26,581 nt of DNA from Anaerolineales bacterium (GTDB taxonomy: Bacteria; Chloroflexota; Anaerolineae; Anaerolineales; E44-bin32): NCBI GenBank assembly GCA_011772595.1, contig WVZH01000343.1, positions 42,619-69,199 on the forward strand. The letters run 5' to 3'. A program made the translations under genes and the position numbers. Below, in pieces: positions 1,846 through 23,400 of the stretch. The notes under the pieces are model-generated. The model did not search any database and was not told the origin of the DNA. It worked only from the letters and a program-made list of their open reading frames with translations. Positions within the stretch are counted from its first letter, which is position 1; the number at the start of each line of letters is the position of its first letter.

Positions 1846-1945
1846 TGCTCACCTCCAATGTTACGCCATGCCTGTCATCATCCTTGCCTGCGAGAGTACT
1901 CAGCTCGGCGTGAACACAAACGAAGAGACGATTAGAAAGGTATGT

Positions 1946-2413
1946 CTACGATCTCAAAAACAGGAAGAAGATGAATACTGCAACTCCGATCAAGACCACT
2001 CCGGAAACGAGAACAACATATATTCTTGAACTATGACCCGTTTCCAGGACGGATTGATAAGGATCTTGCGGATTGTAATAGACAGTGACGGATTGCCCTT
2101 CGGGATAGCGTTGAACGTAGGGCAAGGCCTTCGAAGGTCTGGAAAACTGCTTCGCTCCGAGAAAGATCTGATCAGATTCGAATTCTTGCCCACGATAGGA
2201 AAACGTGTAACGCACAAGCGGCTGGTACTCTGTACTATCACCCGCACTAAACCTCTTATGTACGCGGGACTCTTTGACTATCCCCAACGTGGAAGGCCAC
2301 GCTCTCGTTTGGCCGGCCAACTGAAAGAGTCGGATCCCTTGGATGATCGAGTAAAGCCCCCACAAGCTAAAAAGGACACATAAACCGAAGGTCAAAATCC
2401 TTCCAATATCCAT
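1946..2413 (-). CDS. DUF3592-type membrane protein (copy 1 of a tandem pair)
   Basis: This is a 155-residue paralogue of the downstream gene. Membrane helices lie at residues about 5-27 and 132-153, and the central DUF3592-like domain includes QPLVRYTFSYRGQEFESDQI and RYPEGQSVTVYYNPQDPYQS. The start is backed by GGAGGCGAG five bases ahead of the ATG. It lies 118 bp downstream of the lipoprotein gene 2532-4307 on the same strand and could be read from that gene's promoter, as no separate promoter is obvious. Function is unknown for the family; the membrane location is predicted. Confidence 0.85.
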   Translation of the reverse strand: MDIGRILTFGLCVLFSLWGLYSIIQGIRLFQLAGQTRAWPSTLGIVKESRVHKRFSAGDSTEYQPLVRYTFSYRGQEFESDQIFLGAKQFSRPSKALPYVQRYPEGQSVTVYYNPQDPYQSVLETGHSSRIYVVLVSGVVLIGVAVFIFFLFLRS

Positions 2414-6853: not shown

Positions 6854-7385
6854 TCAATACAGACAACCTCCCTCCTGCACCGACGGGCGCTCAGAAGCCC
6901 CGGCCGTATTGAAGGCCTCCACGCTGTAGGTATAGGGGCCGCTGCCCGGCGGGTCGTCCGTGTAGCTAGTGGCGTTCTTCCCCAACGTGGCGAGGAGTTG
7001 CCCATCTCGGAACACCCTGTAACCGTCTTCGTTCGCAACGTCCACCCAGCCCATGGTCACCTGGTACTCCTGGGCGTTGCAAACCTGGTTCGTGATGGCG
7101 AGCTGGCCCGGCGCGGCGGGCGGCTGCAGGGGCTCGACCTCGATCGTCACCCGGGCTTCACCCTCCTCGCCGACGGACGTCGCCACGAGCGTGTACGTGG
7201 TCGTGCTTGGCGGGCATACCTGGCGCGCGTCGAGGGATTTCACCTCTTGGCCCTCTAGGGATACGCCGATGGCGTTTTCGACCTGCCAGCGCAAGGTGGT
7301 GCACTCGCCCGCTTTAATGGCGTAGCTGTCAGCGTTGAAGTTGATCGCCAGCGGCGCCAGCACCATCGGGGTGACCGGAGGCGTG
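6854..7385 (-). repeat. Duplicated Ig-like/FN3 cassette, copy B
   Basis: This is the partner of 2532-3060, in the same orientation. Base-identical blocks include the stretch around 6914-6949, and the match extends into the 3' flank. Either recent duplication or gene conversion would keep the copies alike while the N-terminal halves of the two genes are unrelated. Confidence 0.85.
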
Positions 7386-8332
7386 GGTGGAAGTGACGTC
7401 GCTTCCGGCGTGTCGTCTGGCGTCATCGCTCCCTCACCGCCCCCGCCGCAGTCCATCGGGCAGCTCGTGAAGTCCTCCGTCGCAAGATCGCATATGTCAT
7501 CCCCGCAAGTGCTGCTGACGACGGCCTCTGAAGCCGTGCCGAGACCACAACTACGCCGCTCGAGGTTACATCCGATGTAAATATCTACAACGAGGTTCCT
7601 CGGCGGACCCGATGTCTCTTCAGCACCGCAGTAGATGCCCGGATCGATCCCGAATAAGGGCCTGGCGTACAACGGCGTCCCTGGGTAGGGAATCTCATTG
7701 AACGCCATGGTGCAATCTCCGGGAAGTAAATCAGCCCGCATGTCAAAGCGCCCAAACTCTCGGGTTTCGAGGTGGATGGCTTCGGAACTCATGTTGCAGA
7801 TTCTTTCAACTTGGGTACAAGGGGACAGTGTTAGCTGGAAAGGCCTGTGCCCGGCGCGAGCCCCGAAGCAAATACCATCGAAAACAGCCGATAATACCCC
7901 TTCTTCCTCATGGAGCACGTTGACATTTGCGGTCTTGATCGTTGGATCGCTGAGGCAGCCGCGCTCGTCGCAGACGATCGCCTCCAGCCTGAAGTTCAAG
8001 TCGTCCGGTGGTGTGACCACACGGGATCCGCTGACCTCGCTCCCGCTCACGGCGGGGGCGATCAGGTTAACGGGTGAGCTGATGAGGCTAGTAACAATCG
8101 AACAGGCTGAACCCCTGCCGCACCCATCGTGGACAGGCACGTCCCAGGAAACGGTCACCGATTCACCCGGACAGATGATCGGAGGCACGACCTCAAAGCC
8201 TGTCTCCGCCACCGCCTCGGCCGCCAACCCGGATCTGTCAAGTTCGCAGCCACCTATGGCCACCGCCGCCAACAGTAGCAATATGGCCACTTTGCCAATG
8301 GAACTTCCGTTTGCATTCAGACATCGAGTCAT
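6854..8332 (-). CDS. Secreted lipoprotein with the shared Ig-like/FN3 cassette
   Basis: The protein has 492 residues. A lipoprotein signal ends in AIGGC (Cys29) and GGGAGG precedes the ATG. The N-terminal region starts with an Ig-like segment (PPIICPGESVTVSWDVPVHD) and is cysteine-rich. A motif of the CGDDxC...E...CPxDC type (CGDDICDLATEDFTSCPMDC) resembles short calcium-binding or disulfide motifs of exported proteins. A P/T linker leads to the Ig-like domain (ECTTLRWQVENAIGVSLEGQ) and FN3 domain (GYRVFRDGQLLATLGKNATS), ending GCLY, nearly identical to the tail of the 2532-4307 protein. The different N-terminal halves on one shared tail suggest that the tail is a surface-attachment or binding module. 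The ECF-type promoter lies about 165 nt upstream. Confidence 0.87.
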   Translation of the reverse strand: MTRCLNANGSSIGKVAILLLLAAVAIGGCELDRSGLAAEAVAETGFEVVPPIICPGESVTVSWDVPVHDGCGRGSACSIVTSLISSPVNLIAPAVSGSEVSGSRVVTPPDDLNFRLEAIVCDERGCLSDPTIKTANVNVLHEEEGVLSAVFDGICFGARAGHRPFQLTLSPCTQVERICNMSSEAIHLETREFGRFDMRADLLPGDCTMAFNEIPYPGTPLYARPLFGIDPGIYCGAEETSGPPRNLVVDIYIGCNLERRSCGLGTASEAVVSSTCGDDICDLATEDFTSCPMDCGGGGEGAMTPDDTPEATSLPPTPPVTPMVLAPLAINFNADSYAIKAGECTTLRWQVENAIGVSLEGQEVKSLDARQVCPPSTTTYTLVATSVGEEGEARVTIEVEPLQPPAAPGQLAITNQVCNAQEYQVTMGWVDVANEDGYRVFRDGQLLATLGKNATSYTDDPPGSGPYTYSVEAFNTAGASERPSVQEGGCLY

Positions 8333-8912: not shown

Positions 8913-10031
8913 TCAACTGTCCTTGAAGCGAATGCGCGGCTTGCGTTTGCGCTTCGACATAATCCCGCCAGGAAGCGCAGTCGACACGATCCGGCCGATC
9001 AACCCGGGCAGGAAGAGCAGCGCCACCAGAAGTCCCAACGCCGCCAGGAAGAAGCTCCCACTTGCTGGTTCACCTACCTCCGGCACCAACCCTCCAGGGT
9101 TGTAGGCCGCCCCTTGCGTCGCCGTCCCAACTTCCGCCAGGGAGACAATCAGATGCCGCGTCAGACCGTCGCGCAACGAGCCCGGGGAGGTGTAGGTGAG
9201 GACGTACTCGCTCTGCAACACGCGCGCATAGCGCTGGTACAGGCGCGTCAGCCCCTCGACGTCGTTGGCGTAGGCGAATTCACCACCCGCCTGTGAGGCC
9301 AGGGACGTCAGCGCCGGAACGTCTAGGCCGGCCAAGGTTTCGTTGCGATGCTCGGGATTTCCCAGGCCCACAGTCGAGATCGAGAGGCCGGAAGGTCCGA
9401 TACTGGCGATGACGTCCGCCAGACCGAACTTGCTCATGTTGTCCATGCCGTCGGTCAGGACGATGATCGCCTTGCGACCCTGGACGGCTGCTAGGATATC
9501 GACGGCCTCGACCAGTGCGTCGTACATGGCCGTGTCCTCGATTGCGACCAGGCCATCGATGGCAGCGTTCACGCGCGCCGCGTCCGCTGTGATCGGCTGC
9601 ACGTACGCGATGGCTGTGTTAAAGGTCAGCAAGCCCACCTGATCACCGGCGCGCATCTGGTCCATATACGCGTGCGCCGCCGTTTTCGCTGTGTTCAACT
9701 TGTCGGCGCTGTTCATGCTGCCACTCACATCGATGACGAGCATCGTGGTCAGGGCATCGACGACGCCCGCGTTGCCCTGTAGTTGATCTGGTTGAATGGT
9801 CACCCCGTCTTCTTGCAGCACCAGATGCTCGGGTTCGATCCCGACGGGTTCACCTTCAGCGTCAGTGACCGAGACGTACACGGTGACGGTGGGGAAGCGG
9901 GAGGTGTCGACCTGGGTGATGTGCACCTGCGGCTCTTCCTCAGTGTCTTGAGCCAGCACAGGAACGCTCCACTGCGTCAGCAGCAGTAGGGTCACGATCC
10001 CAAGGGTTAGGAGTTTTCGTCTTATACACAT
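8913..10031 (-). CDS. Membrane-anchored von Willebrand factor A (VWA) domain protein
   Basis: The protein has 372 residues from ATG 10031, chosen over an upstream frame because GGAGGTGA stands five bases ahead and a signal sequence follows at once (residues about 5-28, ending VLA-QD). An N-terminal beta domain (about 35-90) precedes a VWA domain (about 95-275) with a full metal-ion-dependent adhesion site: D101-x-S103-x-S105, T167 and D194 (TDGMD). One membrane helix (about 326-350) and a very basic tail (KRKRKPRIRF) end the protein, so the VWA domain should face outward. VWA domains bind protein partners through a divalent ion. As last gene of the ubiquitin-like operon, four bases after the FHA gene, it may receive or present a target at the envelope (inference). 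Confidence 0.9.
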   Translation of the reverse strand: MCIRRKLLTLGIVTLLLLTQWSVPVLAQDTEEEPQVHITQVDTSRFPTVTVYVSVTDAEGEPVGIEPEHLVLQEDGVTIQPDQLQGNAGVVDALTTMLVIDVSGSMNSADKLNTAKTAAHAYMDQMRAGDQVGLLTFNTAIAYVQPITADAARVNAAIDGLVAIEDTAMYDALVEAVDILAAVQGRKAIIVLTDGMDNMSKFGLADVIASIGPSGLSISTVGLGNPEHRNETLAGLDVPALTSLASQAGGEFAYANDVEGLTRLYQRYARVLQSEYVLTYTSPGSLRDGLTRHLIVSLAEVGTATQGAAYNPGGLVPEVGEPASGSFFLAALGLLVALLFLPGLIGRIVSTALPGGIMSKRKRKPRIRFKDS

Positions 10032-10035
10032 GGCT

Positions 10036-10899
10036 TCACCTCCGCTCGTGATACACCATCGACGTGTTGCCCATACGGATCGCGTGACCGTCTGCCAGTT
10101 GCGCTCGCTCGATCTTGCGGTTGTTGATAAAGGTACCACTCAAACTCATGTCTTTCAGCGTGAAGTGGGCTCCCGCGCCGGTCAGCATGGCGTGCTGTGG
10201 GTCGATATCTGGATCGGGTAAGGCGATCTCCGATTTGAGGGGGCTGCTGCCGATGATGGCCGTCGGCCCACCCTCGGGGAGGAATTTGTCCAGGATGAAC
10301 GAGGTGCCTTTGAGCTTTCCGCTGGTCACCTCCAGCCAGGCGCGTGACAACAGGACCACAATCAGAGCGATCAAGGCCCCGATGAAAGCGCCCAGTAAAA
10401 CCAGGCCGGTAGCCTTTCCGGAAGTCAGGTCCTCTCCCCAGAGTTTGACGGTCTCGAGCATGGCACCGCCCACCAAACCGCCCAGTGCGCCACCCAGCGC
10501 GCCTTTCCACATCTGGGTTCCACCGGTCACACCCTCGGCAAGCCCGAGCAGCATCCCGAAGAAACCCCACCCGATCGCTCGACCGATCGCTCCGGCGCCG
10601 ACGGCCTGGAAAACCGCCTCACCAAGCGGTAGTCCGATCCCTCCGGCGAGAAGCCCCACGAGACCTCCGAACATCCCGGCGCGCAGCGCACGCAACGGGC
10701 TCAACGTGATCAACCCCTCGGCCGCGCCGAGCGGTACGCCGAGGCACAGTCCCAACAGCGCGCCGACGACCATGTCGCTGAGATAGATGCTGCGACTGAA
10801 GGAAAGCCCCATTAGATTGCTCACCTGCCAGCCGACAAGACCACCGATCGCGCCCAGGACGGCGTAATAATAAGTGCGCATCCTTCTACTCATCGTCAT
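10036..10899 (-). CDS. Polytopic membrane protein with C-terminal FHA-like domain
   Basis: The protein has 287 residues. About five glycine-rich hydrophobic segments fill residues 12-185 (for example ALGGALGGLVGGAM). A cytoplasmic C-terminal domain (about 195-285) follows with the FHA pattern: TAIIGSS, EIALPDPDIDPQHAML, SGTFINNRKI and DGHAIRMGN. The phosphothreonine-contacting Arg after the first Gly is Ser here (G217-S218), and the Ser three before His236 is Asp233. Binding may therefore be phosphate-independent or purely structural. The start overlaps the JAMM gene by 14 bases, with GGAG shortly upstream; a second ATG at 10893 is possible. FHA domains recruit phosphorylated partners, and here it may place the conjugation machinery at the membrane (inference). 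Confidence 0.87.
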   Translation of the reverse strand: MTMSRRMRTYYYAVLGAIGGLVGWQVSNLMGLSFSRSIYLSDMVVGALLGLCLGVPLGAAEGLITLSPLRALRAGMFGGLVGLLAGGIGLPLGEAVFQAVGAGAIGRAIGWGFFGMLLGLAEGVTGGTQMWKGALGGALGGLVGGAMLETVKLWGEDLTSGKATGLVLLGAFIGALIALIVVLLSRAWLEVTSGKLKGTSFILDKFLPEGGPTAIIGSSPLKSEIALPDPDIDPQHAMLTGAGAHFTLKDMSLSGTFINNRKIERAQLADGHAIRMGNTSMVYHERR

Positions 10900-11551
10900 C
10901 TACTCCATCGTCGGCCGCATCATCCGCCAGGTGCATGTTGCCCCATTCCACCACGCTGTCACCTTCTTTGGCCAGGATTTCACAAAAGCCGAAGTAGCGT
11001 TGCGGATCGAGGTCGCCTTCCATCTGACGGATGAAAAAGCCACCCACCACCGTGTGCGGTTCGATGACCAACGCCACCTGCCATGGCTCAGGGAAGAAGT
11101 GATCGTGGAGCCAAAGGTCGTAATGCGACAGGAAAACGCCCATGCGCGGGTGGGTGTGGTACCAGCCGACAAGTTGTCTCTCCGGGAAGCGCTCCTCGAG
11201 TTCGTCGTTCATGGCCACCAAAGTGTCCTGAGTGAACGTCAGAAAAGCGCTTCCTTGCCGCGTGAAGCGGGCCGGGATCACCCCCTCAATCAGGACAAAT
11301 TGCTCCTCCGTGCGGGCGTCGACGTGCCAACTGCCCACCAATCCACCACCAACTTCGTTCTCGAGGTCGATCCTGCTATGCTCGGTGAGTTGTGTGAAAG
11401 CCGCCGATGTGACGAAAACCGAAACCAGGGGCTTGGCGCCGTCCTCGAAAGGAGGACGCCAGCAGCGCATCAGCCGTTTGGAGATCCGGGAACGGAAAGG
11501 CGTCGTATCGGTCGGCGGGAACAGGCGAACCTGGGACTCAGAATCAGACAT
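10886..11551 (-). CDS. JAMM/MPN-family metalloprotease, predicted deconjugase of the ubiquitin-like system
   Basis: The protein has 221 residues, and AAGGGGG precedes the ATG. The complete JAMM signature is present: Glu66 in ENEVGG, then GWYHTHP with H132 and H134, seven residues to S142 and D145 (LSHYD). This is the zinc site that cleaves isopeptide or peptide bonds after ubiquitin-like C-termini in Rpn11, AMSH and bacterial JAB proteins. An acidic tail ends the protein (DDAADDGVDDDE). No signal peptide is seen, so it acts in the cytoplasm. It lies directly after the free ubiquitin-like gene and overlaps the FHA gene, so it is firmly part of the operon. Likely substrates are conjugates of the 88-residue protein and perhaps the TAGG junction inside the E2 fusion. 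Confidence 0.93.
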   Translation of the reverse strand: MSDSESQVRLFPPTDTTPFRSRISKRLMRCWRPPFEDGAKPLVSVFVTSAAFTQLTEHSRIDLENEVGGGLVGSWHVDARTEEQFVLIEGVIPARFTRQGSAFLTFTQDTLVAMNDELEERFPERQLVGWYHTHPRMGVFLSHYDLWLHDHFFPEPWQVALVIEPHTVVGGFFIRQMEGDLDPQRYFGFCEILAKEGDSVVEWGNMHLADDAADDGVDDDE

Positions 11552-11605
11552 CGTACCCCCTTCGCACCCACTTCACGCGGTCTCTCGGAATCATGGAACC
11601 CATCC

Positions 11606-11872
11606 TCATCCAGCTGTGACGTCGGCCGTGAGCATCAAACGATCCTCTTCCGGGACGCCTGCGGAGGCCAGGGTTTCCTCCTCCTGCAACTCACGGCCCA
11701 ACGCTTTGCTGTCGAGACGATAGCCCATCGGCCGTCCATCCGGACCAACCGTGGGCAGCTCGAGCGAGGTCGTGAGTTCGGGGATCAACTCATTCACCGG
11801 GACATCGTCGGGCACTTCGGCCGTCCGTGTGCCGCCGGCAGGTAGTACGAGGGTTACAGAGATGTCAGACAT
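11606..11872 (-). CDS. Ubiquitin-like modifier (YukD-like), free form
   Basis: This 88-residue protein reads as a single beta-grasp domain: a beta hairpin start (VTLVLPAGGTRTAEVPDDVP), a helix (VNELIPELTTSLEL), and later strands ending PEEDRLMLTADVTAG. The chain stops right after Gly, so the C-terminus would be ready for adenylation without processing. It is about four-fifths identical, without gaps, to the first 88 residues of the neighbouring E2 fusion protein. AAGGAGAAAGTGAC precedes the ATG. By family knowledge, YukD-like proteins are ubiquitin-fold proteins, some found beside E1, E2 and JAMM genes. Here it is the most likely modifier attached to targets. An alternative is a non-conjugated scaffold, as in type VII secretion, but no type VII ATPase is present. 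Confidence 0.9.
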   Translation of the reverse strand: MSDISVTLVLPAGGTRTAEVPDDVPVNELIPELTTSLELPTVGPDGRPMGYRLDSKALGRELQEEETLASAGVPEEDRLMLTADVTAG

Positions 11873-11951
11873 GTCACTTTCTCCTTCGATAAGTTGTTTT
11901 TTTATTCAAACGCATGCGATCGCAATGCATACCCAACCCATGACAGACAGA

Positions 11952-12836
11952 TTATTTCAACTTCACTCTGGGTTTCTTGATCTTCGGTTTCTTCTTTCGC
12001 TTCGCTTTGCCGTCCGCCGGCGCTTTCTCGGCGCGTATCTTTACCCGCTCAGGTCGAAGCAGCTCCCTCGTATCGACAGGGAAAGCGTCGGGGTTTTTCG
12101 TGCGATAGGCGCGGCACCAGCGGGCTGCCTCCGGATCCCAAGGGAAGGGTGGCTTGGTAGGATCGTCGTGGAAGTTCTTGTACTGCAGCATTTCACCCAG
12201 CATGATGATAAGCCGATCGAGGGATCGTGCTGCCGTCCACCAGGCCGCGTCGATGCACACACTGCCATTGATGTGGTTGATGTTGGGATGCCAGATGGGA
12301 GTCAACCATTTGAGACCCGGCCAACGCTGCGGATACTGGCTGTGGAGATACACTTCCACCTGGTGATGCTCAGCGTAAATCGGCTTGCCGCGTTTGTCGA
12401 CGCCGACGATGCTTTTACAGCGGAAGGTCACGATGTACCTCTCCGGAGGGACGCCTTTGCGAACAGACTGCGCTTCGAAGCCGATCAACGATGTGCGACC
12501 CTCAAGCTCGCGCATGCGCTCGTAATCGGCGCGCAAGCGTCGCATTCGCGGACTCTGTTCGACTGAAACGCCACCGGCCGTGATATCCGCCGTGAGAATC
12601 AGGCGATCTTCTTCCGGGACTTGAGCCGAGGCCAGAGTCTCGTCTTCCTGTAGTTCGCGTCCCAGCGCCTTGCTATCCAGGCGGTAGCCCATCGGCCGCC
12701 CGTCGGGTCCCACGGTCGGCAATTCCAACAAAGCCACCAATTCGCCTAAGAGATCCCCCACACTGACGTCATCGGGCACTTCGGCCGTTCGTGCGCCGCC
12801 GCTCGGCAAGACGATGGTTACTGTGAGGTCGGGCAT
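11952..12836 (-). CDS. Ubiquitin-like domain fused to an E2 ubiquitin-conjugating-enzyme domain
   Basis: The protein has 294 residues, and AGGAGA precedes the ATG. Residues 1-89 are a YukD-like ubiquitin-like domain ending LTADITAGG, paralogous to the downstream free protein. Residues about 95-250 are a UBC fold: EVYLHSQYPQRWPGLKWLTP, then the HPN motif (H183-P184-N185) and the predicted active Cys194 in GSVCID, followed by the WxxAxSLDRLIIMLGEML helix, as in eukaryotic E2s. A Lys/Arg-rich tail (about 265-294) could bind nucleic acid or acidic membranes. The E2 would accept the activated modifier from the E1 and pass it on. The fused domain may serve as a cis donor, an allosteric element, or a precursor cut by the JAMM enzyme (inference). 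Confidence 0.93.
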   Translation of the reverse strand: MPDLTVTIVLPSGGARTAEVPDDVSVGDLLGELVALLELPTVGPDGRPMGYRLDSKALGRELQEDETLASAQVPEEDRLILTADITAGGVSVEQSPRMRRLRADYERMRELEGRTSLIGFEAQSVRKGVPPERYIVTFRCKSIVGVDKRGKPIYAEHHQVEVYLHSQYPQRWPGLKWLTPIWHPNINHINGSVCIDAAWWTAARSLDRLIIMLGEMLQYKNFHDDPTKPPFPWDPEAARWCRAYRTKNPDAFPVDTRELLRPERVKIRAEKAPADGKAKRKKKPKIKKPRVKLK

Positions 12837-12868
12837 CGAGTCTCCTTTCCTTCCCTACGCTACACCGG

Positions 12869-13726
12869 CTAGGAATTATGATGAGGTACCTGGCAGGTGC
12901 CCGTCACCGCCCAACAATCGGCGTGATGCGACGTGTGACAAGTCGAGCATTCCACGACGCCGCGGGAATCCCTGGGTTCAACAATCTCGAGACAGTACGG
13001 ACAACGGTGCTCCACATGTGCGGTCAATCGTATCCGCGCTTGTGAGCGCCGTTTTGTGCGCCCGATGCGCTTCTGCTTGTCCGCTTTCAAAGGTGCTTTA
13101 CGTACCCTGGCTCGTCCGCGCTGGGTGGTTCCTAGGCCGACGGACTGACGGCGGGTGGGAACACCGGTTGCTGAGGCGTGAGCCAATGCCGACGGAGCCA
13201 TCACATCGCCTCCGGGGCGCACTCGTGAGCGCAGTACCCGCTGTAGGTTGCTCCGCGAAAAGCGTCGGCTGCGCGGGTGTGAAGGGCTCAGCGCTGCGCT
13301 TGGGCGCTTGGCCCAGGCACGAACCGCCAGCCACGCCGCCACTGCGCCCGACGCAAAGCGGAGAAGGCCTTCCCAATCTGGCTCGGGCACCCTGCGGCCG
13401 ATGAGATCCATGCCCAGCAGCCCTTTGCTCAACCACCCGAGGAAGATCATCCCCGCGCTCAGGCCGAACAACGCCACCAACCAGCGGATCAAGGGACCGC
13501 GGTGCGGCAACGTAAAGCGCGAGACCAGGCCGACGACCAGGCCCAACCCCGCTGCGCTTGCAATCACAAGCACAGAAGGTTCGATCGTGCGGTTGAAAAT
13601 GTAAAGAATGGCAAACCCCAATCCGGCGGCGATAGCCGCGCTGCCGGTCACCGCAACACCTGTATACAACGGCGTACGTGCGTTCGGTGATGTAAGAGGC
13701 GCCATGGCCTCGACCTGCACGCTCAT
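12869..13726 (-). CDS. Membrane protein with C-terminal RING-like zinc domain, candidate E3
   Basis: The protein has 285 residues from ATG 13726, preferred because GAGGA lies nine bases upstream, seven bases after the E1 stop; ATG 13741 (overlapping the E1 end) and 13759 are also in frame. Three or four membrane helices fill residues about 21-138. A long basic linker (about 140-235) leads to a binuclear zinc domain: C242-x2-C245, C260-x2-C263, then H267/H268, C271 and C278. The spacing fits the prokaryotic RING/treble-clef group (CPYC, ECSTCHTSHHADCW). RING domains recruit charged E2 proteins and speed transfer, which places this protein as an E3 at the cytoplasmic membrane face. The E1 and E2 neighbours support that reading; ligase activity itself is inferred. 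Confidence 0.88.
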   Translation of the reverse strand: MSVQVEAMAPLTSPNARTPLYTGVAVTGSAAIAAGLGFAILYIFNRTIEPSVLVIASAAGLGLVVGLVSRFTLPHRGPLIRWLVALFGLSAGMIFLGWLSKGLLGMDLIGRRVPEPDWEGLLRFASGAVAAWLAVRAWAKRPSAALSPSHPRSRRFSRSNLQRVLRSRVRPGGDVMAPSALAHASATGVPTRRQSVGLGTTQRGRARVRKAPLKADKQKRIGRTKRRSQARIRLTAHVEHRCPYCLEIVEPRDSRGVVECSTCHTSHHADCWAVTGTCQVPHHNS

Positions 13727-13733
13727 GAGTTCC

Positions 13734-15386
13734 TCAGTCATGCAAATGTATGCGCCCACGCGCCGGGCTGTCCGCGGTCACGGGCTCCTTGCGAATAGAT
13801 AGCTCGGGGCCAAGCTTGATCACGGGTCGCTCGAAGTGCCGAAAGTGAAGTGCACCCGCCAGATCGCCGGTAAGCTCGTAGAATCGGTACTGCTGACCGT
13901 TGTGGGCGCGCAGGATGTGCAATGGTGGGACGCCCAGCGTGCTCAAAGTGCGATCGAGAAACGGCTCTTCGCCGACGATCACGTGCGTCATCTCGACGTG
14001 GCGCACAAGCCCGCAACTCGGGCAATGCGCAGCGTCGAAGCTGACCTCCGAGATAGGGCGCATCACCTCCTCGACCACTTCACATTTTTGACACTGAAGC
14101 GAGAGCACCAACTCCTGGTCGAGCTCGATCACAGCGTCCGGACCGAGATCGCCGCGTGCGATTTGCAGCAATTCGATCAAGGTCGTGTCCTCGGCGCGTT
14201 TCTCTAATTCTACGATCTCACCGTAGTTCCAATGGCTTTCACAATCCTCACGCCTCACGTAACTGGTGGTGTGCATCTGATTGGTCATGCCGTTGACATG
14301 CACCACCTTGCCAGGCTCGACGGACAATCCGTGAATCAATTTGAGCGCCTCTTGCGCCTGCATGCCGCCGACGACCGAGGCGATGGTCGGTGTGGTAGGA
14401 ACTTTTCCCAGCAAGATGTTGGCACGGGCCAGTAGCGGGCAGGAATAGCGCATGGAAATCTCTCGTCTTGCCTGCTCCGTCAGGGTGCATTCAAAACAGG
14501 CGCCTTCTCCGGGGACGAAGACGCGCACCAAGCCGAGCAACTCCTGAATAGCACCGTCCACCCAAGGCTTGTTCAGCCAGTAGCTAAAGCGATTGACCGC
14601 CAGACGCGCCTCGCGGTTGTCGAGGCAGCCAATGATGGCGTCCATACGCCGGAACACACCCAAACCGACCTGGGTGCGCACGTCACCGTTGAAGTACTGG
14701 ATATGCACGTCGGGATTTAGCTCGCGCAAACGCGCAGCGGCGATTTCCGCCTTCGGTCTACCGTTGTCCCTCTCACGAAACAGCACGGACCGGGAGAGAT
14801 TGGCAGCCTCGATGACGTCGAAGTCAAGGATAAAAAGTTGACCGACGCCCATCAAAGCCAGGTTTTTGGCCACCTCGTTGCCTAACGCACCTGCGCCGAC
14901 GATCATCATCTTCGCCGCCTGTACCTTCTCGCGCTCCCACCAGGAAATGAAGTCGAAAGTCCCCAGTCGATCCCGACGTAGATTGGGGATGCGCAAGGGT
15001 CTCTCCGTGCTGGCGCTCACGCGAATCGGCTTGGGTCGCTGCGGAGCCTCTTCAAGCTCAGTCGGCACCTGGGCCACCGGAGCCTCTCGGACACCTACGT
15101 CGCGCGTACGATGGGCAAGCGCCAACTCGGTCGCTTGGACATAATTGCTGCGATCAAGCGGGCGCACAAAAGAACCCACGCCCTTCTTAACTTCAACCAG
15201 CCGGTTCTCGGAGAGCGCCTTAAGCGCTTCGCGCAACGTGGCACGGCTTACGCGTAGTTGCTTCATCAATGCCCGTTCCGAGGGGAGCTTCTCGCCCGGC
15301 TTCAACTCGCCGTCGAGAATGGAGGCCGCCAATCGCCCGGCAACGACTTGCGCCAACGTTGGGTGTTTAACAGGGTGGATCTTCAT
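13734..15386 (-). CDS. GntR-type winged helix fused to an E1-like (ThiF/UBA) activating enzyme
   Basis: The protein has 550 residues, with AGGAGG seven bases before the ATG. Residues about 8-75 form a FadR/PdhR-like winged helix (GEKLPSERALMKQLRVSRAT, LREALKALSE, VKKGVGSFV). Residues about 145-380 are an E1 adenylation domain: nucleotide loop G164-x-G166-x2-G169, DFD (D188, D190), NLSRS (N196, R199), K212 and CLDN (D256). CFECTL (C297, C300) matches the zinc-binding CxxC of E1 proteins and C316 in RYSCPLL is the best candidate for the thioester cysteine. A C-terminal zinc ribbon has C432/C435 and C455/C458, followed by an uncharacterised domain to 550. It should activate the ubiquitin-like protein with ATP and load the E2. 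The wHTH implies DNA binding, most simply at the TGGTCAGACCA palindrome before its own gene. Confidence 0.93.
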   Translation of the reverse strand: MKIHPVKHPTLAQVVAGRLAASILDGELKPGEKLPSERALMKQLRVSRATLREALKALSENRLVEVKKGVGSFVRPLDRSNYVQATELALAHRTRDVGVREAPVAQVPTELEEAPQRPKPIRVSASTERPLRIPNLRRDRLGTFDFISWWEREKVQAAKMMIVGAGALGNEVAKNLALMGVGQLFILDFDVIEAANLSRSVLFRERDNGRPKAEIAAARLRELNPDVHIQYFNGDVRTQVGLGVFRRMDAIIGCLDNREARLAVNRFSYWLNKPWVDGAIQELLGLVRVFVPGEGACFECTLTEQARREISMRYSCPLLARANILLGKVPTTPTIASVVGGMQAQEALKLIHGLSVEPGKVVHVNGMTNQMHTTSYVRREDCESHWNYGEIVELEKRAEDTTLIELLQIARGDLGPDAVIELDQELVLSLQCQKCEVVEEVMRPISEVSFDAAHCPSCGLVRHVEMTHVIVGEEPFLDRTLSTLGVPPLHILRAHNGQQYRFYELTGDLAGALHFRHFERPVIKLGPELSIRKEPVTADSPARGRIHLHD

Positions 15387-15407
15387 CAGTCCGTCCTCCT
15401 GGTATGG

Positions 15408-15418
15408 TGGTCAGACCA
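15408..15418. promoter_or_regulatory. GntR/FadR-type operator palindrome TGGTCAGACCA
   Basis: A perfect 5-bp inverted repeat surrounds a central base, the form bound by FadR/PdhR-subfamily GntR regulators. It lies 22 bases before the E1 start codon and just downstream of the -10 box, where a bound protein would block transcription. The first gene of the operon carries a FadR-like wHTH, so autoregulation is the natural reading. Confidence 0.75.
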
Positions 15419-15431
15419 GATTACCGGACTT

Positions 15432-15460
15432 AGGATACGCCGAAAGGCTTGGCGAGTCAA
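15432..15460 (-). promoter_or_regulatory. Housekeeping-type promoter of the ubiquitin-like operon
   Basis: On the minus strand TTGACT (15460-15455), a 17-base spacer and TATCCT (15437-15432) fit the -35/-10 consensus closely. Transcription should begin near 15425, seven or so bases before the operator, leaving a leader of about 40 nt. Confidence 0.7.
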
Positions 15461-15600
15461 CCCCCGCAGAGTACTATGGCGCGCGAGGAACACCTCAATA
15501 TCGTCGCAGGTGCGCGCTCCCTCGCGAGCAGCGTCTCTCAGACCCGGGAGTATTGACGCACACCAGAGTTCTCATCTTGATTGTCCCCGGGAGGGACACC

Positions 15601-16749
15601 ATGCCCACGGATTTTAAAACCATTTTTCTGCTCGACCCTGACGTCATTTACCTGAACCACGGGGCCTTTGGTGCTTGCCCGCGACCTGTGTTCGAGGTCT
15701 ACCAACAACTGCAAAGGGAACTCGAACGCCAACCGCAAGAGTTCCTGTCACGTCGTATCCAGGACCGCATGGCGCAAGCCCGCTCAGCCCTGGCTACTTT
15801 CCTCGGATGCCAGGCGGACGAGGTGGTCTATTTCCCCAACCCAACGACCGCCATCAATATGGTCGCCCGCAGCCTCGAGCTGAAGCCCGGCGATGAGATC
15901 CTGTCGACCGATCACGAATACGGCGCCATGGATCGCACATGGCGTTTCATCTGCGAGCAGAGCGGCGCGCGCTACGTTCGCCAACCCATCCCCCTCCCAC
16001 TGACCACGGTCGAGTCCTTCGCGCAGTCCTTTTGGAATGGCGTCAACGCTCACACACGCGTAATCTTTCTCAGTCACATCACCAGCCCCACAGCGCTGCG
16101 CTTTCCGGTTGAAAAGATCTGCCAACGTGCCCGCCAGGCTGGGATCTTGTGCATCGTGGATGGGGCGCACGCACCCGGTCAGATCCCTCTCGACCTCACC
16201 TCGCTGGGCGCCGACCTGTACACAGGCGCATGTCACAAGTGGCTCTGCGCACCAAAGGGTTCCGCCTTCCTCTATGCGCGCAAGGAGATCCAGGATTGGC
16301 TCCGGCCGCTGGTCGTCAGCTGGGGCTGGGAAGCAGATCAACCCAGCGAGTCGCGCTTCATCGACCACCACGAATGGCAGGGCACGCGCGATCCCGCGGC
16401 CTTCCTCAGCGTACCGGCGGCGATTGAATTTCAGCGCCAACACAATTGGGAAGCTGTCCGCACGCGCTGCCACCAGCTTGCCGCAGAGACTCGAGCACGC
16501 ATCAACACTCTCACGGGTCTCGAGCCCATTTGCCCCGACTCGACGACCTGGTTCGTGCAGATGTTCACCGCCCAGCTACCCGAAGTCGACGCGGAGGCGT
16601 TGCAGCAGCAACTCTATGAAACCTATCGCCTTGAGGTAGCGCTGAAGCGCTGGAACGAACAGCCCCTCATCCGGGTCTCTTTCCAGGCCTACAATGACCA
16701 AAAAGATTCCGACGCCCTTCTCAGTGCGCTGCAAGAGATATTGACCTAG
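15601..16749 (+). CDS. Class V PLP-dependent aminotransferase (isopenicillin N epimerase-like)
   Basis: The protein has 382 residues from ATG 15601, supported by GGGAGGG seven bases upstream and by the family-typical opening (VIYLNHGAFGACPRPV). PLP-site features are present: FPNPTTAIN, D187 with H190 (VDGAHAPGQ), and the Schiff-base lysine K213 in TGACHKWL, followed by APKGSAFLY. R-containing GTRDPAAFLSVPAA is the usual segment facing the substrate carboxylate. Relatives act as CefD-like epimerases, cysteine desulfurase-like lyases or aminotransferases; the substrate cannot be told from sequence. It diverges from the ubiquitin-like operon with 214 bp between starts. Its promoter is unclear, and regulation by the shared operator is possible but unproven. 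Confidence 0.9.
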   Translation: MPTDFKTIFLLDPDVIYLNHGAFGACPRPVFEVYQQLQRELERQPQEFLSRRIQDRMAQARSALATFLGCQADEVVYFPNPTTAINMVARSLELKPGDEILSTDHEYGAMDRTWRFICEQSGARYVRQPIPLPLTTVESFAQSFWNGVNAHTRVIFLSHITSPTALRFPVEKICQRARQAGILCIVDGAHAPGQIPLDLTSLGADLYTGACHKWLCAPKGSAFLYARKEIQDWLRPLVVSWGWEADQPSESRFIDHHEWQGTRDPAAFLSVPAAIEFQRQHNWEAVRTRCHQLAAETRARINTLTGLEPICPDSTTWFVQMFTAQLPEVDAEALQQQLYETYRLEVALKRWNEQPLIRVSFQAYNDQKDSDALLSALQEILT

Positions 16750-16939: not shown

Positions 16940-18460
16940 ATGCGAATTCCGTTGAATCTAGAAAGTCCAGTGCCGCTGTATCAACAAATCCAGGGGTTTT
17001 TGCGAACGCAGATCGAGTCGGGGTCGCTGCCTTCCGAAATGAGGTTGCCCGCCACCCGAACGCTGGCCGCCAGTCTCGGGGTGAGTCGCATAACCGTGAC
17101 CAACGCTTATGCCGATTTAGAGGCCGAGGGTCTGATCTACATGCGACCCGGCAGTGGCACCTTCGTTTCGCCCACTCAAGGCGCTACCTATCCGATGCTA
17201 AAAAGCCGTGACCGGGCCAGCGACTGGCCACTTTGGCAGCAGGAACTCTTGAGCCGCACCTGGTTGCCGACTTACCGCGAATTGGAAAGCCTACTGACAC
17301 AAGTCACGCACCCAGAACCGATATCCTTCACTGCCGGTCTTGGCGCTTTGGAGATCTTTCCCGTTGAGGAATTTCGCAAGACCATGAACACCACTTTGCG
17401 ACGCGAGGGATATCGAGCGTTCGAGTATGGGGATCGTGCTGGAAACCCTACCCTGCGTGCAACCATCGCCCACATCCTTACCAATCAAGGAATCCCCACG
17501 ACACATAACGAAGTGCTCATCACCTCAGGGTCACAGCAGGCCATGGCGTTGGTCGCTGGGTTGATACTCCGACCCGGGGACATCGTCGTTGTGGAGAGCC
17601 CAACCTACGTCGGCGCAATCGACCTCTTCCGCTCGCTCGATGTCCGTCTTCTCGGTGTGCCCATGGACAAGCACGGCATGATCATCGATAGTTTGGACGA
17701 GATTTTGCAGACCAGCCGACCTCGCCTGATCTATACGATCCCCACATTCCACAACCCCACAGGTTCGTGCATGAGTGCCACTCGCAGAAGACGCCTGGTC
17801 GATCTGGCCAGTCGCTACGACGTCCCCATCCTGGAAGACGACTGTTTCGGAGATCTTCGTTTCGAGGGTCGTGCGCTCCCGGCGTTGAAGGCGCTCGACA
17901 CGGATGGGAACGTGATCTACACCAACACGTTCTCAAAGGTACTAATGCCCGGTCTGCGGATCGGCTTCTTGGTGGCCTCAGGACCCATCTACGAGGGCCT
18001 CATTGCTTGCAAGCACGCCAGTGACCTCGTCACCTGTAATCCGATACAGCGCGCGCTGGACGCCTACCTTTCCGTCGGCCGCTATCAGGCTCACGCACGG
18101 CGAACTTGCCGACTTTACCGACAACGGCGCGACGCCATGGTAAAGGCACTGGAACGCCATCTCGCGACGGACGTTCGCTGGCACACCCCGCGTGGCGGAT
18201 TGTTCATTTGGCTCCATCTGCCGGAGGGTTGCTCCGCCAACGATCTCTTCACCTTTGCAGGGAAGGAGGGCGTGACGTACGCGCCCGGCTCGCTATTCTT
18301 CCCTGGAGAGCGTGAACAACCCTTCCTGCGGCTAAACTTCACCATCAACCAACCAGAAATCATCGAAGAGGGTATTCGTCGTCTCGGGCGCGCGCTCGAC
18401 CGATATCTTGCTTCTGACGACAAGCCTCCAAACCAACGACCTAGGCCTGTCGCCATTTGA
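16940..18460 (+). CDS. MocR-family regulator: GntR winged helix fused to a class I aminotransferase domain
   Basis: The protein has 506 residues, and GGGGTGA precedes the ATG. Residues about 10-78 form the winged helix (VPLYQQIQGFLRTQIESGSL, LPATRTLAASLGVSR, YADLEAEGLIYMRPGSGTFV). Residues about 125-490 are a fold-type I aminotransferase domain: FEYGDRAGNPTLR, SGSQQAM, HNPTG (N272), LEDD (D300/D301), the PLP lysine K333 in NTFSKVLMPGLRIGF, and R340. MocR proteins such as PdxR and GabR use PLP as sensor and activate or repress vitamin B6 or amine metabolism genes. The adjacent class V aminotransferase is one possible target; no pdxS/pdxT is present here. The effector is not known. Confidence 0.93.
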   Translation: MRIPLNLESPVPLYQQIQGFLRTQIESGSLPSEMRLPATRTLAASLGVSRITVTNAYADLEAEGLIYMRPGSGTFVSPTQGATYPMLKSRDRASDWPLWQQELLSRTWLPTYRELESLLTQVTHPEPISFTAGLGALEIFPVEEFRKTMNTTLRREGYRAFEYGDRAGNPTLRATIAHILTNQGIPTTHNEVLITSGSQQAMALVAGLILRPGDIVVVESPTYVGAIDLFRSLDVRLLGVPMDKHGMIIDSLDEILQTSRPRLIYTIPTFHNPTGSCMSATRRRRLVDLASRYDVPILEDDCFGDLRFEGRALPALKALDTDGNVIYTNTFSKVLMPGLRIGFLVASGPIYEGLIACKHASDLVTCNPIQRALDAYLSVGRYQAHARRTCRLYRQRRDAMVKALERHLATDVRWHTPRGGLFIWLHLPEGCSANDLFTFAGKEGVTYAPGSLFFPGEREQPFLRLNFTINQPEIIEEGIRRLGRALDRYLASDDKPPNQRPRPVAI

Positions 18461-20483: not shown

Positions 20484-23400
20484 ATGAACATGAAGCGCTG
20501 TTTCATCGCCGGCCTGGCACTCCTTATGTTAGCACTTCTCTATGTGGGGTGCGCGCCGAAGACACCCGCGACTCCTGTTGCCACACCTACGCCTGCGGTC
20601 GAACTTGTGGACGAGGGACTGCCCCTGGCGCCAAAAGTGATCGCACAGCGCCCCGTCTATGGCGAAGAGAGCCCCCTAGATACGGCTTTCGAGATCATTT
20701 TCGACCAAGCGATGGACACATCGAAAACCAGCACCCTGTGGCAAGTCATCGATCCCGACGGGATCCCTCTTGCTGGACACACCTCCTGGCCGGATGAACG
20801 CACGCTGCTCTTCCAACCCGACCTGCTGTTGCAGCCGGATTCCAGCTATCAGGTCATCCTGGGCACCAGCGTCACCAGTGCTGAGGGCGTTCCACTGGCT
20901 GCAGAACGCACCTTCGTCTTCAATACCGTCGAGCGTTTACAAGTGGTCCAAGTATTCCCAGACGACGGGACATTCGAGGTCGAAACCGATGCCTTGATCA
21001 CGGCTATGTTCAACCGCCCCGTAGTGCCTCTCACAACAGCAGAGGAGCAAGTCGGATTTCCCCAACCCCTGCGCATTTCTCCACCCGTGGACGGGCAAGG
21101 GGAGTGGTTGAGCACGTCAGTGTACGTCTTTCGACCAGAGGCGCCGCTCACAGGCGGAACCACATACACGGCCACCATCCAGGCTGGTTTGACCGACGTC
21201 ACCGGCTCCGAAGCAACTCGCCTCATGGAGGACGTTTCGTGGCAATTCAGCACTGTAGCCCCAACCATCTCTTCTTTAAAGATCCCGGATGTCGTCAGCA
21301 GCCCCCCGGATGGGTACAGCGACATGCCTCTCAACGCCACGTTTGCTGTCGGATTCCGGCAACCCATGGACCAAGCCAGCGTTGAAGCTGCCTTCTCATT
21401 GACTTCCTTCGAGAACCAATTCGTACCCGGGATATTCGAGTGGGACGACGACGGGCTCGAGATGACCTTCATCCCCAATCGGTTGCTCGATCTGGGCATG
21501 GGCTACACACTCAACCTGAGCAGGAGCGCACGGGCGTTAGATGGAGGCAACCTTAGTGACGGGCTTTTCTGGCGCTTCCACACGGTCTTCCCACCGGCGA
21601 TCATGCACGTCACGCCAGCCAATGGCACGGTCCAGACCTATTTCACCAACGAATTCGTGATCAACTTCACCTCCCCGATGGATCAAGAGACCCTCGAAAA
21701 TCGGGTCGTGGTCACGCCTCGCCCGGAGGGTGGAATCCGCTGGAACTACTACAGTCGCAAGATGGTCGTCTACGGCCTGGAACCTTCCACAGCCTACAAG
21801 GTGCGCATCTTGCCCGGAATGGCCGATCCCTATGGAAATCGCATTCTCGAGGGAATGACTGTCAACTTCGTCACCGCCGAGCTTCAACCTTCAGCGTTCC
21901 TGCAAACACCGGGTTCCTACACCCTTCTACGGGCACAAGGTAAGCAGGAGGTTTATCTTCAGTACGTCAATGTGGAAACGATAGACTTCTCACTCTATCG
22001 GATGAGTCCGGAGCAGTTCGTCACCTATCGGAGCAAGAGGATCGCGGCCGAAGAGCACCAACCATGGCAGGGAGACCTCGTCCACGCCTGGACTGAGACC
22101 ACAACGGGACCGCGCGATCAAGATAACTTGAAGTCGATCGAACTCACCACCAGCGAAGGAGATCCATTACCTCCGGGCATCTATTTCCTGGGAATGAAAA
22201 GCTCCCGAATATCATCCACCTACAATTGGCTGAGCGCACGTGTTTTGATCGTGGCCACCGCCAACATGACGCTGAAATCCACGCTTTCCGAAGCGCTCCT
22301 CTGGCTGACGGACCTCGAAACCGGCGAGCCGGTCAGCGATGTGCCGATCTTCGGGTATGACAGAGCCACGGACTCCCTCGGTCGAGGGACGAGCGACGCC
22401 AGCGGACTCTTGCGCCTCGACCTGGTCGTGCCAGAAGGCCGCTACGAGGAACGCTACTACTTCGCTCAAGATGATCAGAACTTCGCTTTCGCCTCGAGCC
22501 ACATGGGCAGCGACGTCTACCCATACGACTTCGGCATCCGCACCAACTACTACCTCGATCCCAATCAAGTTAGCGTTTACCTGTACACCGACCGCCCGCT
22601 CTACCGCCCCGGCCACACGGTGTACTTCAAAGGCATCGTGCGCCTCAACGACGACCTAGAATACACTTTGCCCACCGAGGAAGAAGTGGAGGTGACAGTC
22701 AGCAGTTACGGGGAGACCGTCTTCGAACAAACGCTTCCGCTTTCCACCTTCGGCACCTTCGACGGCGATTTTAAACTGGATGAGCAGGCTGCACTTGGTG
22801 ACTACTCCATCCGCGTCCGCTTCCCTGAAGAAGAGACCTCCATCGGTTGGCGGTCGTTCAACGTCGCCGAGTATCGCAAACCGGAATTTCAGGTCGACAT
22901 CCAGGCTTCCGCAAGCGATGTTCTCGACGGTGACACAGTCGAGCTCGCTGTCAGCGCCGACTTCTTCTCAGGCGGGGCTGTGGCCGACGCTGAGGTAAGT
23001 TGGGTCCTGAGAACACAGGATTATATGTACCGCGCCTCCGGCGAGTTCAGCCGTTTCCAATTCCTCGATTTCGAGTACGACGCCCATTATTGGTATCAAG
23101 AGCCCTTCAGCTACAGCGATCTAATCGCAGAGGGCGAGGGCCGTACGAATGAGCACGGCGAGTTCCTTCTTTCGCTACCGGTCGACTTGAGCGAACTCGG
23201 CTCTAGCCAACGCCTCACTTTCGAGGCCACAGTGACCGATCTGGCCAACAACGAAGTCAGCAGCCGGGTGCAGATCGTAGCGCACCTCAGTGAGTTCTAC
23301 ATCGGTGTCCGTCCCCAAAACTACGTCGGTCGGGCCGGAAGTGAAGAGACCTTTGAGTTCGTCGTATTGGATTGGGATGGTGAGCCCGTGGCTTCCCAAT

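Follow-up and report, generated by a model that had tools for sequence, protein, structure and literature searches.

A stretch of 26,581 nucleotides from an Anaerolineales bacterium (Chloroflexota; contig WVZH01000343.1 of assembly GCA_011772595.1), hereafter the window, carries a seven-gene operon which probably encodes a ubiquitin-type conjugation pathway, whereby a small modifier would be joined by its T-A-G tail to proteins at the cell membrane and the activating enzyme (E1) would repress the operon through a GntR domain of its own. The genes encode this GntR-E1, a membrane RING protein, a YukD-type ubiquitin-like protein (Ubl) fused to a conjugating enzyme (E2), a free YukD-type modifier, a JAMM protease and two partner proteins with FHA and VWA domains, respectively (Table 1). 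Systems composed of YukD, E1, E2, RING and JAB proteins had already been predicted; what is new to us is the predicted operator with its regulon, a motif shared by several protein termini, the pattern that suggests tail processing, and the conservation of the seven genes as a unit.

Conservation of the operon

An earlier note, made from the letters of the sequence, had placed seven minus-strand genes here, separated by anything from an overlap to a gap of 79 bp, and all seven open reading frames (ORFs) were found with coordinates that agree: the E1 and RING genes overlap by 26 bp, followed by gaps of 32 bp (RING to E2), 79 bp (E2 to modifier, the largest) and 54 bp (modifier to JAMM), a 14-bp overlap of the JAMM and FHA genes and a 4-bp gap between FHA and VWA, the latter taken to start with the ATG at 10029-10031. 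The end point chosen in that note, 15460, is the end of the -35-like element TTGACT (15455-15460). Relatives were collected by scanning GTDB species genomes with the E2 fusion, which found 91, and the best 80 loci were retained; by their record titles these belong to Anaerolineae or Chloroflexota, with Leptolinea tardivitalis and Pelolinea submarina among them. By tblastn, E1 was located in 78 of the 80 loci, RING in 79, E2 in 80, JAMM in 76, FHA in 75 and VWA in 71, and 77 loci possess a separate modifier gene. All seven genes stand in identical order in 69 loci, and in the remaining 11 the absent genes fall past a contig end. Gene order is constant in each locus uncut by a contig end, at an E2 identity of 65-84%, and the earlier note's own ground for giving up its reading, a lack of conservation as a unit, was looked for and did not apply. 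All counts below consider full-length ORFs only (E1, 68 of 78; RING, 72 of 79; E2, 79 of 80; modifier, 75 of 77; JAMM, 71 of 76; FHA, 40 of 75; VWA, 66 of 71), and the neighbouring ORFs that served as controls are mechanical ORFs of at least 100 residues.

The operon lies downstream of the ribosomal L10 gene (593-765 bp off, nusG-rplK-rplA-rplJ cluster) in 23 of the 58 loci with 2 kb of upstream sequence, and lexA lies 3' of it in 21 of the 59 with 1 kb of downstream sequence; 19 loci have both neighbours, the families of which were verified in locus L004 only. The operon of the window has neither a ribosomal-cluster nor a lexA neighbour. Among 72,556 plasmid and 50,697 phage records no match to the E2 fusion was identified. 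Within the class, 54 of 396 genomes match, and reading these rows by eye assigned 17 to the fusion type, one to a split type, 29 to an unfused sister type (16 of the 29 were fetched and read) and seven to partial or distant matches.

Components of the probable pathway

The residues which the earlier note had cited for E1, E2 and JAMM are correct and kept in at least 97% of the respective alignment rows, these being G164, G166, G169, D256 and C316 of E1 (69 rows, full-length homologues and the window), H183-P184-N185 and C194 of E2 (80 rows) and E66, H132, H134, S142 and D145 of JAMM (72 rows), the latter following the pattern E-x(n)-H-x-H-x(7)-S-x-x-D. Its domain assignments likewise stand, including the two fusions, GntR-E1 and modifier-E2, as well as the membrane RING, FHA and VWA partners; the operator, the shared terminal motif and the signs of processing had escaped it.

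E1 matches ThiF (7.2e-56) and GntR (8.5e-21), and its ThiF-type nucleotide motif together with a cysteine that is likely catalytic, C316, is what is found in the YukD/E1/E2/RING/JAB systems, while its winged helix and the predicted palindromic operator at its own promoter are the attributes of a GntR-family regulator. The closest solved sequences are eukaryotic UBA7 and UBA1, and the predicted model supports the E1 fold claimed before. In this model, the C-terminal domain (residues 391-507), which holds four invariant cysteines (zinc ribbon), is of high confidence, followed by a disordered tail. Because alignments of the model to UBA1, UBA7 and SAE2 extend up to residue 505-510, albeit as multi-domain alignments with a root-mean-square deviation of 3.9-7.7 Å, the C-terminal domain is suggested to resemble the E2-recruiting ubiquitin-fold domain (UFD) of these enzymes. 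E2 combines UQ_con (7.7e-11) with YukD (2.5e-9), has eukaryotic UBE2K as nearest solved sequence and is assigned the UBC fold by sequence, and JAMM matches JAB (5.2e-10), with eukaryotic Rpn11 as nearest solved sequence.

The RING identity was assigned to the membrane protein from its Prok-RING_1 family match and invariant ligands. Of 73 aligned members, 72 match Prok-RING_1 (E<=0.01, best 6.1e-12), and at least 97% of 73 rows retain C253, C256, C271, C274, H278, H279, C282, C289 and H293, with columns outside the zinc domain mostly variable. The predicted model shows four confident transmembrane helices, a disordered linker and a confident C-terminal domain. The VWA protein (VWA_2, 9.9e-17; residues numbered from the codon after the ATG) has a hydrophobic N-terminus, a hydrophobic C-terminal segment and a basic tail predicted to be cytosolic; D100, S102, S104, T166 and D193, kept in about 99% of 67 rows, form an intact metal site by the pattern of the metal-ion-dependent adhesion site.

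The modifier and its T-A-G tail

The free modifier (YukD, 7.7e-12; mean net charge -8.0) ends in glycine as had been noted, its tail reading ...ADVTAG with one Gly and not Gly-Gly, and the consensus of the tails is D-[IV]-T-A-G. In 74 of 77 loci the protein ends exactly at T-A-G, the exceptions being a protein truncated at the end of a contig and two that end TAGGR and TAGA. In the fused copy, T86-A87-G88 is present in 80 of 80 rows, and the next residue (Ala 48, Gly 17, Ser 13 and Lys 1; n=79) is conserved to 23%, which marks a sharp boundary. Free and fused copies form separate orthologous groups across 72 loci, with similarities of 0.80 among free and 0.75 among fused copies as compared to 0.72 within and 0.70 between loci; gene conversion between the two copies was hence rejected, as both the free/free and the fused/fused values exceed that within loci. 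Since the copies are separate and give no sign of conversion, selection of its own apparently maintains the tail in the fused copy. Locus L086 encodes the two parts separately, the modifier ending in TAGRQL and the E2 standing alone. Of the 16 modifiers of the sister system, 13 end at T-A-G and three are extended by A, RS and QGRRA (one, two and five residues). As expected for precursors that are trimmed by a protease, extended tails occur next to a fixed T-A-G boundary, and for the Rpn11-type JAMM of Caldiarchaeum subterraneum PMC5654768 reports trimming of pro-ubiquitin and cutting of a Ub-GFP fusion.

A terminal motif shared by E1, E2, VWA and JAMM

The tails of E1, E2 and VWA, which are non-homologous proteins with tails otherwise variable in length and sequence, share a motif, [KRG]-[IV]-[KRH]-[LIF], usually P-R-I-K-L-K close to the stop codon. 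Its core lies within the final 12 residues of 40 of 68 E1, 59 of 79 E2 and 47 of 66 VWA proteins as compared to 3 of 673 neighbouring ORFs; for the final 45 residues the counts are 53 of 68, 69 of 79 (inflated for E2 by an internal R-P-E-R-V-K stretch) and 60 of 66 versus 18 of 673. The other components carry it there rarely (RING, 11 of 72; FHA, 1 of 40; modifier, 0 of 75), and in JAMM it is found within the initial 45 residues (35 of 71, control 19 of 675). Shuffling controls run with a previous version of the motif are concordant for E1, E2, VWA and JAMM. Of six loci checked because modifier and JAMM stand far apart in them, five encode an extra JAMM protein in this gap, and all five of these proteins, which had not been used in defining the motif, end in it.

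A search for client proteins with a strict DNA pattern of the C-terminal motif gave 17 matches in 21 genomes carrying the system, seven of them in the operon by position, and the 10 off-operon matches are fewer than the 32 of the reversed-pattern control. Among 61 genomes sampled from the phylum, three or more of them with the system, 12 strict matches in 10 genomes were obtained. With off-operon matches below the reversed control, the idea of the motif as a genome-wide protein tag is unsupported.

The predicted operator and its lipoprotein sites

The palindrome TGGTCTGACCACCATACCA occurs as an exact match once in the window (shuffle mean 0.02), 13 bp past a -10-like element, the -35- and -10-like elements being called by their likeness to promoter hexamers. 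Across the loci, TGGT-N(0-4)-ACCA is present in 56 of 69 E1 upstream regions versus a shuffle mean of 0.72, and in one region upstream of E2. The full element TGGTCTGACCANCATACCA scores at least 15 of 18 in 65 of the 69 E1 upstream regions, there always 24-46 bp before E1, as compared to a maximum score of 13 among 652 background windows. Where a GntR domain would not fit into E1, operator scores reach 10-11 at best (11 loci), and 10 in genome G643; locus L102, which is outside these 11 control loci, scores 18 with the aligned E1 start. In 21 whole genomes, a site with up to three mismatches lies at the operon in 18, the exceptions being G643, with an E1 that lacks GntR, and G594 and G606, in which a GntR-E1 is accompanied by a site of 14/18.

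Outside the operon, matches with three mismatches are at background level in these 21 genomes, and sites with up to two mismatches number two, both in Pelolinea submarina. A set of 43 class genomes (29 of the sister type, 14 lacking an E2 match) gave nine matches, all with two mismatches, versus eight of the reversed control. Fifty further genomes were those behind loci already scoring at least 16/18, and hence served the search for extra sites and provide no independent test of the operon operator; they gave three reversed-control matches in total. All 15 off-operon sites with up to two mismatches from the 21 and the 50 genomes were fetched, 10 of which, in eight genomes, are followed at a distance of about 35-75 bp by a gene whose product has a signal peptide of the lipobox type, called by the lipobox motif. 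These lipoproteins fall into two families, one with seven sites (53-85% identical; G003, G775, G777, G778, G781, G783, G786) and one with three (39-54% identical; G003, G781, G782); -35- and -10-like elements precede the operator at the lipoprotein sites, and the two G003 lipoproteins tested have no Pfam match. Since the operator stands upstream of E1, drops to background level where GntR is lacking and recurs before lipoprotein genes, E1 is predicted to act as an autorepressor that also governs an envelope regulon. The position of the Pelolinea-group sites ahead of two families of lipoproteins makes an envelope-maintenance response the likely role of the circuit.

Downstream of the operon, the window holds a lipoprotein-like gene that has no Pfam match (6854-8332, minus strand), with a lone TGGTGTGACCA half-palindrome inside it at 8009.

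Domain fusions and a sister system

A query with the L086 VWA-RING protein found 176 relatives, and among the 120 listed four join VWA with Prok-RING_1, one of which is the query's own cluster, and six join VWA with FHA. An FHA-like stretch precedes the JAMM domain in the two extra JAMM proteins tested, exceeding the FHA cut-off in L069 but not in L075. Proteins that unite sensor, FHA, RING or protease parts are hence recurrent, and the VWA-RING and VWA-FHA fusions as well as the sister system support the reading of the operon as a pathway.

This sister system (L081, L082, L087-L099, L103) lacks GntR, FHA and VWA. It encodes E1 in 14 of 16 loci, a highly conserved YukD modifier ending PEVTAG, an unfused E2 and usually two JAMM proteins. 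At least one RING-like zinc protein was identified by pattern in 13 of the 16 loci and two in 10, and with Pfam, which was run on L091 only, both RING proteins of that locus exceed the Prok-RING_1 cut-off (39.5 and 30.8 bits). Upstream of the sister operon (L082:6130-7992; also L081, L092, L093, L095, L096 and L098) a CAP-domain (SCP) protein and/or a protein of about 400 residues is encoded, and these proteins have a repeated I-T-x-[ED]-D-[ILV] motif in common with the N-terminus of RING1 of several loci, possibly a docking motif of the sister system. Locus L086 (genome G643) is an expanded relative with two RING genes, two JAMM genes, a VWA-RING fusion and an E1 that lacks GntR; a VWA-like gene is apparently interrupted there, and transposase-like insertions were read by eye.

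Features and neighbouring genes

Table 1. Coordinates of the operon, its predicted regulatory elements and related features (window positions unless a locus is named)
Feature	Position	Strand	Remark
Seven-gene operon (GntR-E1, membrane RING, YukD-E2 fusion, YukD modifier, JAMM, FHA, VWA)	8913-15386	(-)	
-35-like TTGACT of the operon promoter	15455-15460	(-)	identified in the sequence itself; -10-like element follows after a 17-bp spacer
-10-like TATCCT	15432-15437	(-)	read from sequence
Predicted GntR-E1 operator TGGTCTGACCACCATACCA	15400-15418	(-)	exact match
GGAGG, likely ribosome-binding site	15395-15399	(-)	putative; abuts the operator
E1: GntR winged helix, ThiF/E1 adenylation domain, C-terminal domain, disordered tail	13734-15386	(-)	
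GntR domain of E1, residues 12-74	15165-15353	(-)	PF00392, 8.5e-21
RIHL terminal motif of E1, residues 545-548	13743-13754	(-)	
Membrane RING protein: four predicted transmembrane helices, C-terminal Prok-RING_1	12869-13759	(-)	
Prok-RING_1 domain, residues 249-293	12881-13015	(-)	ligands C-C-C-C-H-C-C-H
YukD-type Ubl fused to UBC-fold E2	11952-12836	(-)	HPN, C194
T-A-G end of the fused Ubl, residues 86-88	12573-12581	(-)	predicted JAMM cleavage after Gly88
RVKL terminal motif of E2, residues 290-293	11958-11969	(-)	
Free YukD-type modifier, 88 residues	11606-11872	(-)	end DVTAG
JAMM/MPN+ protease	10886-11551	(-)	nearest solved relatives Rpn11
Membrane protein with C-terminal FHA domain	10036-10899	(-)	FHA, 2.3e-11
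Secreted/anchored VWA protein: signal peptide, VWA, C-terminal transmembrane helix, basic tail	8913-10031	(-)	
RIRF terminal motif of VWA	8925-8936	(-)	predicted cytosolic side
Extra JAMM proteins between modifier and JAMM	L067:4861-6069; L069:4667-5752; L074:11277-12413; L075:11246-12358; L076:11200-12330		
Lipoproteins with the E1 operator, Pelolinea group	L155:7871-8632; L156:8015-8659		

Divergent from the E1 promoter region, a cysteine-desulfurase-like class V aminotransferase is encoded on the plus strand (15145-16749), followed by a MocR-type GntR-aminotransferase regulator (16940-18460, plus strand), a second GntR fusion near the GntR-E1. Farther off lie a bacterial alpha-2-macroglobulin of 1987 residues with four Big_5 Ig-like stretches (20484-26447, plus strand) and two adjoining DUF3592 genes, probably a tandem duplicate (1384-2413, minus strand).

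A proposed mechanism

In the mechanism suggested here, E1 would initially adenylate Gly88 of the modifier and then hold it as a thioester on C316, from where it would be handed over to C194 of E2, recruited by the E1 C-terminal domain which is UFD-like in the predicted model. The four-helix Prok-RING_1 protein would serve as ligase (E3) for membrane or envelope-associated targets, and JAMM would strip the modifier from targets and may, by a cut after T-A-G, release a second modifier from the E2 fusion. The FHA protein and the VWA protein, with its secreted VWA domain, transmembrane helix and cytosolic tail, would form a membrane platform sensing the cell surface. Through the terminal R-[IV]-K-L motif, E1, E2, VWA and JAMM may dock on one partner in common, the simplest candidate for which is the acidic modifier. 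Dimerisation is known from MoeB, ThiF and UBA5, and an E1 dimer would bind the TGGT-N3-ACCA repeats at the transcription start and repress the operon, whereby loading of E1 would be the switch, meaning that E1 would leave the DNA when free modifier is scarce. The joint account, in which the GntR-E1 senses free modifier and thus couples conjugation at the membrane to the expression of the operon and of envelope lipoproteins, R-[IV]-K-L on E1, E2, JAMM and a transmembrane VWA receptor is the bacterial counterpart of the SUMO-interacting motif (SIM) and the Ubl-E2 fusion is a polyprotein from which JAMM cuts part of the modifier supply, is a tentative one which we consider possible and rather doubtful as a whole.

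If true, bacteria would possess a chromosomal, non-proteasomal and membrane-centred ubiquitin-type pathway, more housekeeping-like than phage defence, and the origin of RING-type ligation would become open to direct testing in bacteria; the class has cultured members (Leptolinea, Pelolinea), and the chemistry of the T-A-G tail, with its tryptic remnant LMLTADVTAG, eases the discovery of substrates by proteomics. We know of no other E1 that represses its own operon, so that this would be the first known to us, next to a bacterial analogue of SIM-type docking. Coupling to a proteasome was rejected, PF00227 being matched in 1 of 37 genomes with 24.1 bits at a cut-off of 22.4 bits.

Weighing the evidence

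Several points weigh against the conjugation pathway as outlined. The literature search, which covered titles and abstracts, found no biochemistry for any member of the system, and the motif searches described above revealed no client protein. The RING of the window matches Prok-RING_1 with 1.1e-5 and 25.7 bits, which is under the cut-off of 29.1 bits, and the structure search with the RING model returned lists filled by its transmembrane bundle, the reason why the RING identity was based on family and ligands. Canonical FHA domains bind phosphothreonine by the Arg after the Gly of the G-R motif and the Ser of S-x-x-H, and here G217-S218 in 41 of 41 rows replaces this Arg by Ser, and the latter Ser is lacking at position 233, where Ala or Asp stands in most rows ahead of P-Q-H236; because these residues are lacking, a phospho-signal input via FHA is not supported. 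The conservation of T-A-G within the fusion might reflect a structural role instead of cleavage. On the side of regulation, poor sites accompany some GntR-E1 copies (L026, L052, L063 and L074 with 13-14/18; G594 and G606 as above), and 5 of the 15 off-operon sites do not lie before lipoproteins, their positions being within genes, at the end of a contig or ahead of genes of other kinds. Since several family-one sites have a second lipoprotein-like gene diverging on the far side, in L155 a DUF3048 protein, the gene under regulation is uncertain and these sites may serve either or both; the operator could also be bound by another GntR protein instead.

As to the motif, its form was chosen after the tails had been viewed, so that the neighbouring-ORF control and the five extra JAMM proteins are the fair tests, and it is absent from the final 45 residues of 15 of 68 E1, 10 of 79 E2 and 6 of 66 VWA proteins. 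The weakest step is its partner: the modifier was proposed because it is acidic and devoid of the motif, by analogy to SIMs, and this is a guess. A competing explanation keeps the pathway and takes the R-[IV]-K-L tail for a basic tail binding membrane or nucleic acid or for a lysine-bearing site of auto-conjugation, which we regard as a serious contender, if a little less than probable. The motif is indeed basic and often terminal, with lysine at +2 in 58% and at +4 in 48% of 298 instances; however, the I/V and L positions are kept while the basic position swaps between K, R and H, some copies are free of lysine (e.g., RIRLHD), and the motif is rare in the 673 neighbouring ORFs, its strict C-terminal form being at background elsewhere in the genomes.

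The remaining alternatives assign the genes to other functions altogether. Anti-phage defence of the BilABCD, CBASS or Bub kind, with the modifier being conjugated to phage or defence proteins, is what the bacterial operons of E1, E2, JAMM and Ubl studied to date mostly serve, as stated for BilABCD in PMC11354881, and E1 and JAMM do match the PADLOC E1-E2 and JAB models, with BilD matched weakly (1.6e-7). Yet among the best 25 PADLOC matches, BilD, matched on the ThiF domain, is the only BilABCD component and none concerns E2 or Ubl; BilA, BilB, BilC, a CD-NTase or an effector are not among the seven genes, nor is a CD-NTase among the window genes scanned. Together with the constant gene order in uncut loci at 65-84% E2 identity, the chromosomal synteny (nusG-rplK-rplA-rplJ in 23 of 58 loci, lexA in 21 of 59) and the lack of plasmid or phage matches this makes defence improbable. 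A sulfur-carrier system following MoeB, ThiF and Urm1 logic, in which E1 would form a thiocarboxylate on the modifier for biosynthesis, might be read from the ThiF-family E1 beside the aminotransferase V/SufS-like gene of the window, but a desulfurase-like gene near the operon was found in 1 of 80 loci only (the close relative L002), and no role in sulfur transfer is known for a dedicated E2 of the UBC fold whose HPN and Cys are invariant, for a RING protein or for an Rpn11-like JAMM, so we judge it very improbable. An accessory cluster of type VII secretion is scarcely credible: the modifier does match YukD in Pfam, a component of this secretion system in Firmicutes and Actinobacteria (PMC1779556), but E1, E2 and JAMM are no parts of it, WXG100 exceeds the cut-off in 5 of 21 system genomes only, and membership was rejected as no FtsK/EssC-type ATPase or WXG100 protein is among the window genes scanned.

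Comparison with known systems

A search of titles and abstracts found no account of the operon, its operator or the terminal motif, and the operon may have been depicted before. Prokaryotic E1/E2/RING/JAB systems with YukD-like Ubls and Prok-RING_1 were reportedly predicted by Burroughs, Iyer and Aravind in 2011. Their component set is alike and the RING of the operon belongs to the same Pfam family, whereas the GntR operator, the lipoprotein sites, the terminal motif and the T-A-G pattern were found in the present analysis.

BilABCD and the Cap2/Cap3 pair of type II CBASS rely on the same E1, E2-type and JAMM chemistry in bacteria (PMC11354881, PMC10097602); as far as the accessible parts of these sources go, they are defence systems with other Ubls, whereas RING, FHA and VWA partners and a syntenic chromosomal context belong to the operon described here. 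The ubiquitin operon of Caldiarchaeum subterraneum resembles it in its compact E1/E2/RING set and in the Rpn11-type JAMM (PMC5654768), but is archaeal and employs a Gly-Gly ubiquitin, GntR, FHA and VWA not being mentioned in the accessible portion of that source, whereas the YukD-type modifier here ends T-A-G. In the SUMO system, the E1 tail and protease extensions bear short hydrophobic beta-strand-like motifs, SIMs occurring in the tails of SAE2 and SENP proteins (PMC12687455); the motif reported here differs in being basic, with a proposed partner.

The earlier note had not known this arrangement as characterised. A Ubl-E2 fusion is not unique to it: according to PMC7159879, the vWA-MoxR FtsH ternary systems possess a module of JAB, E1, RING-type E3, Ubl-E2 fusion and a vWA partner, and its authors also suggest that JAB could free the Ubl. 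No AAA+ domain was identified in the window genes scanned. As described in that source, the ternary systems comprise MoxR, double FtsH AAA+ ATPases, EAD1 and a caspase-like effector and are named for other phyla; the present operon is devoid of these components and is distinguished by its FHA membrane protein and its GntR-E1.

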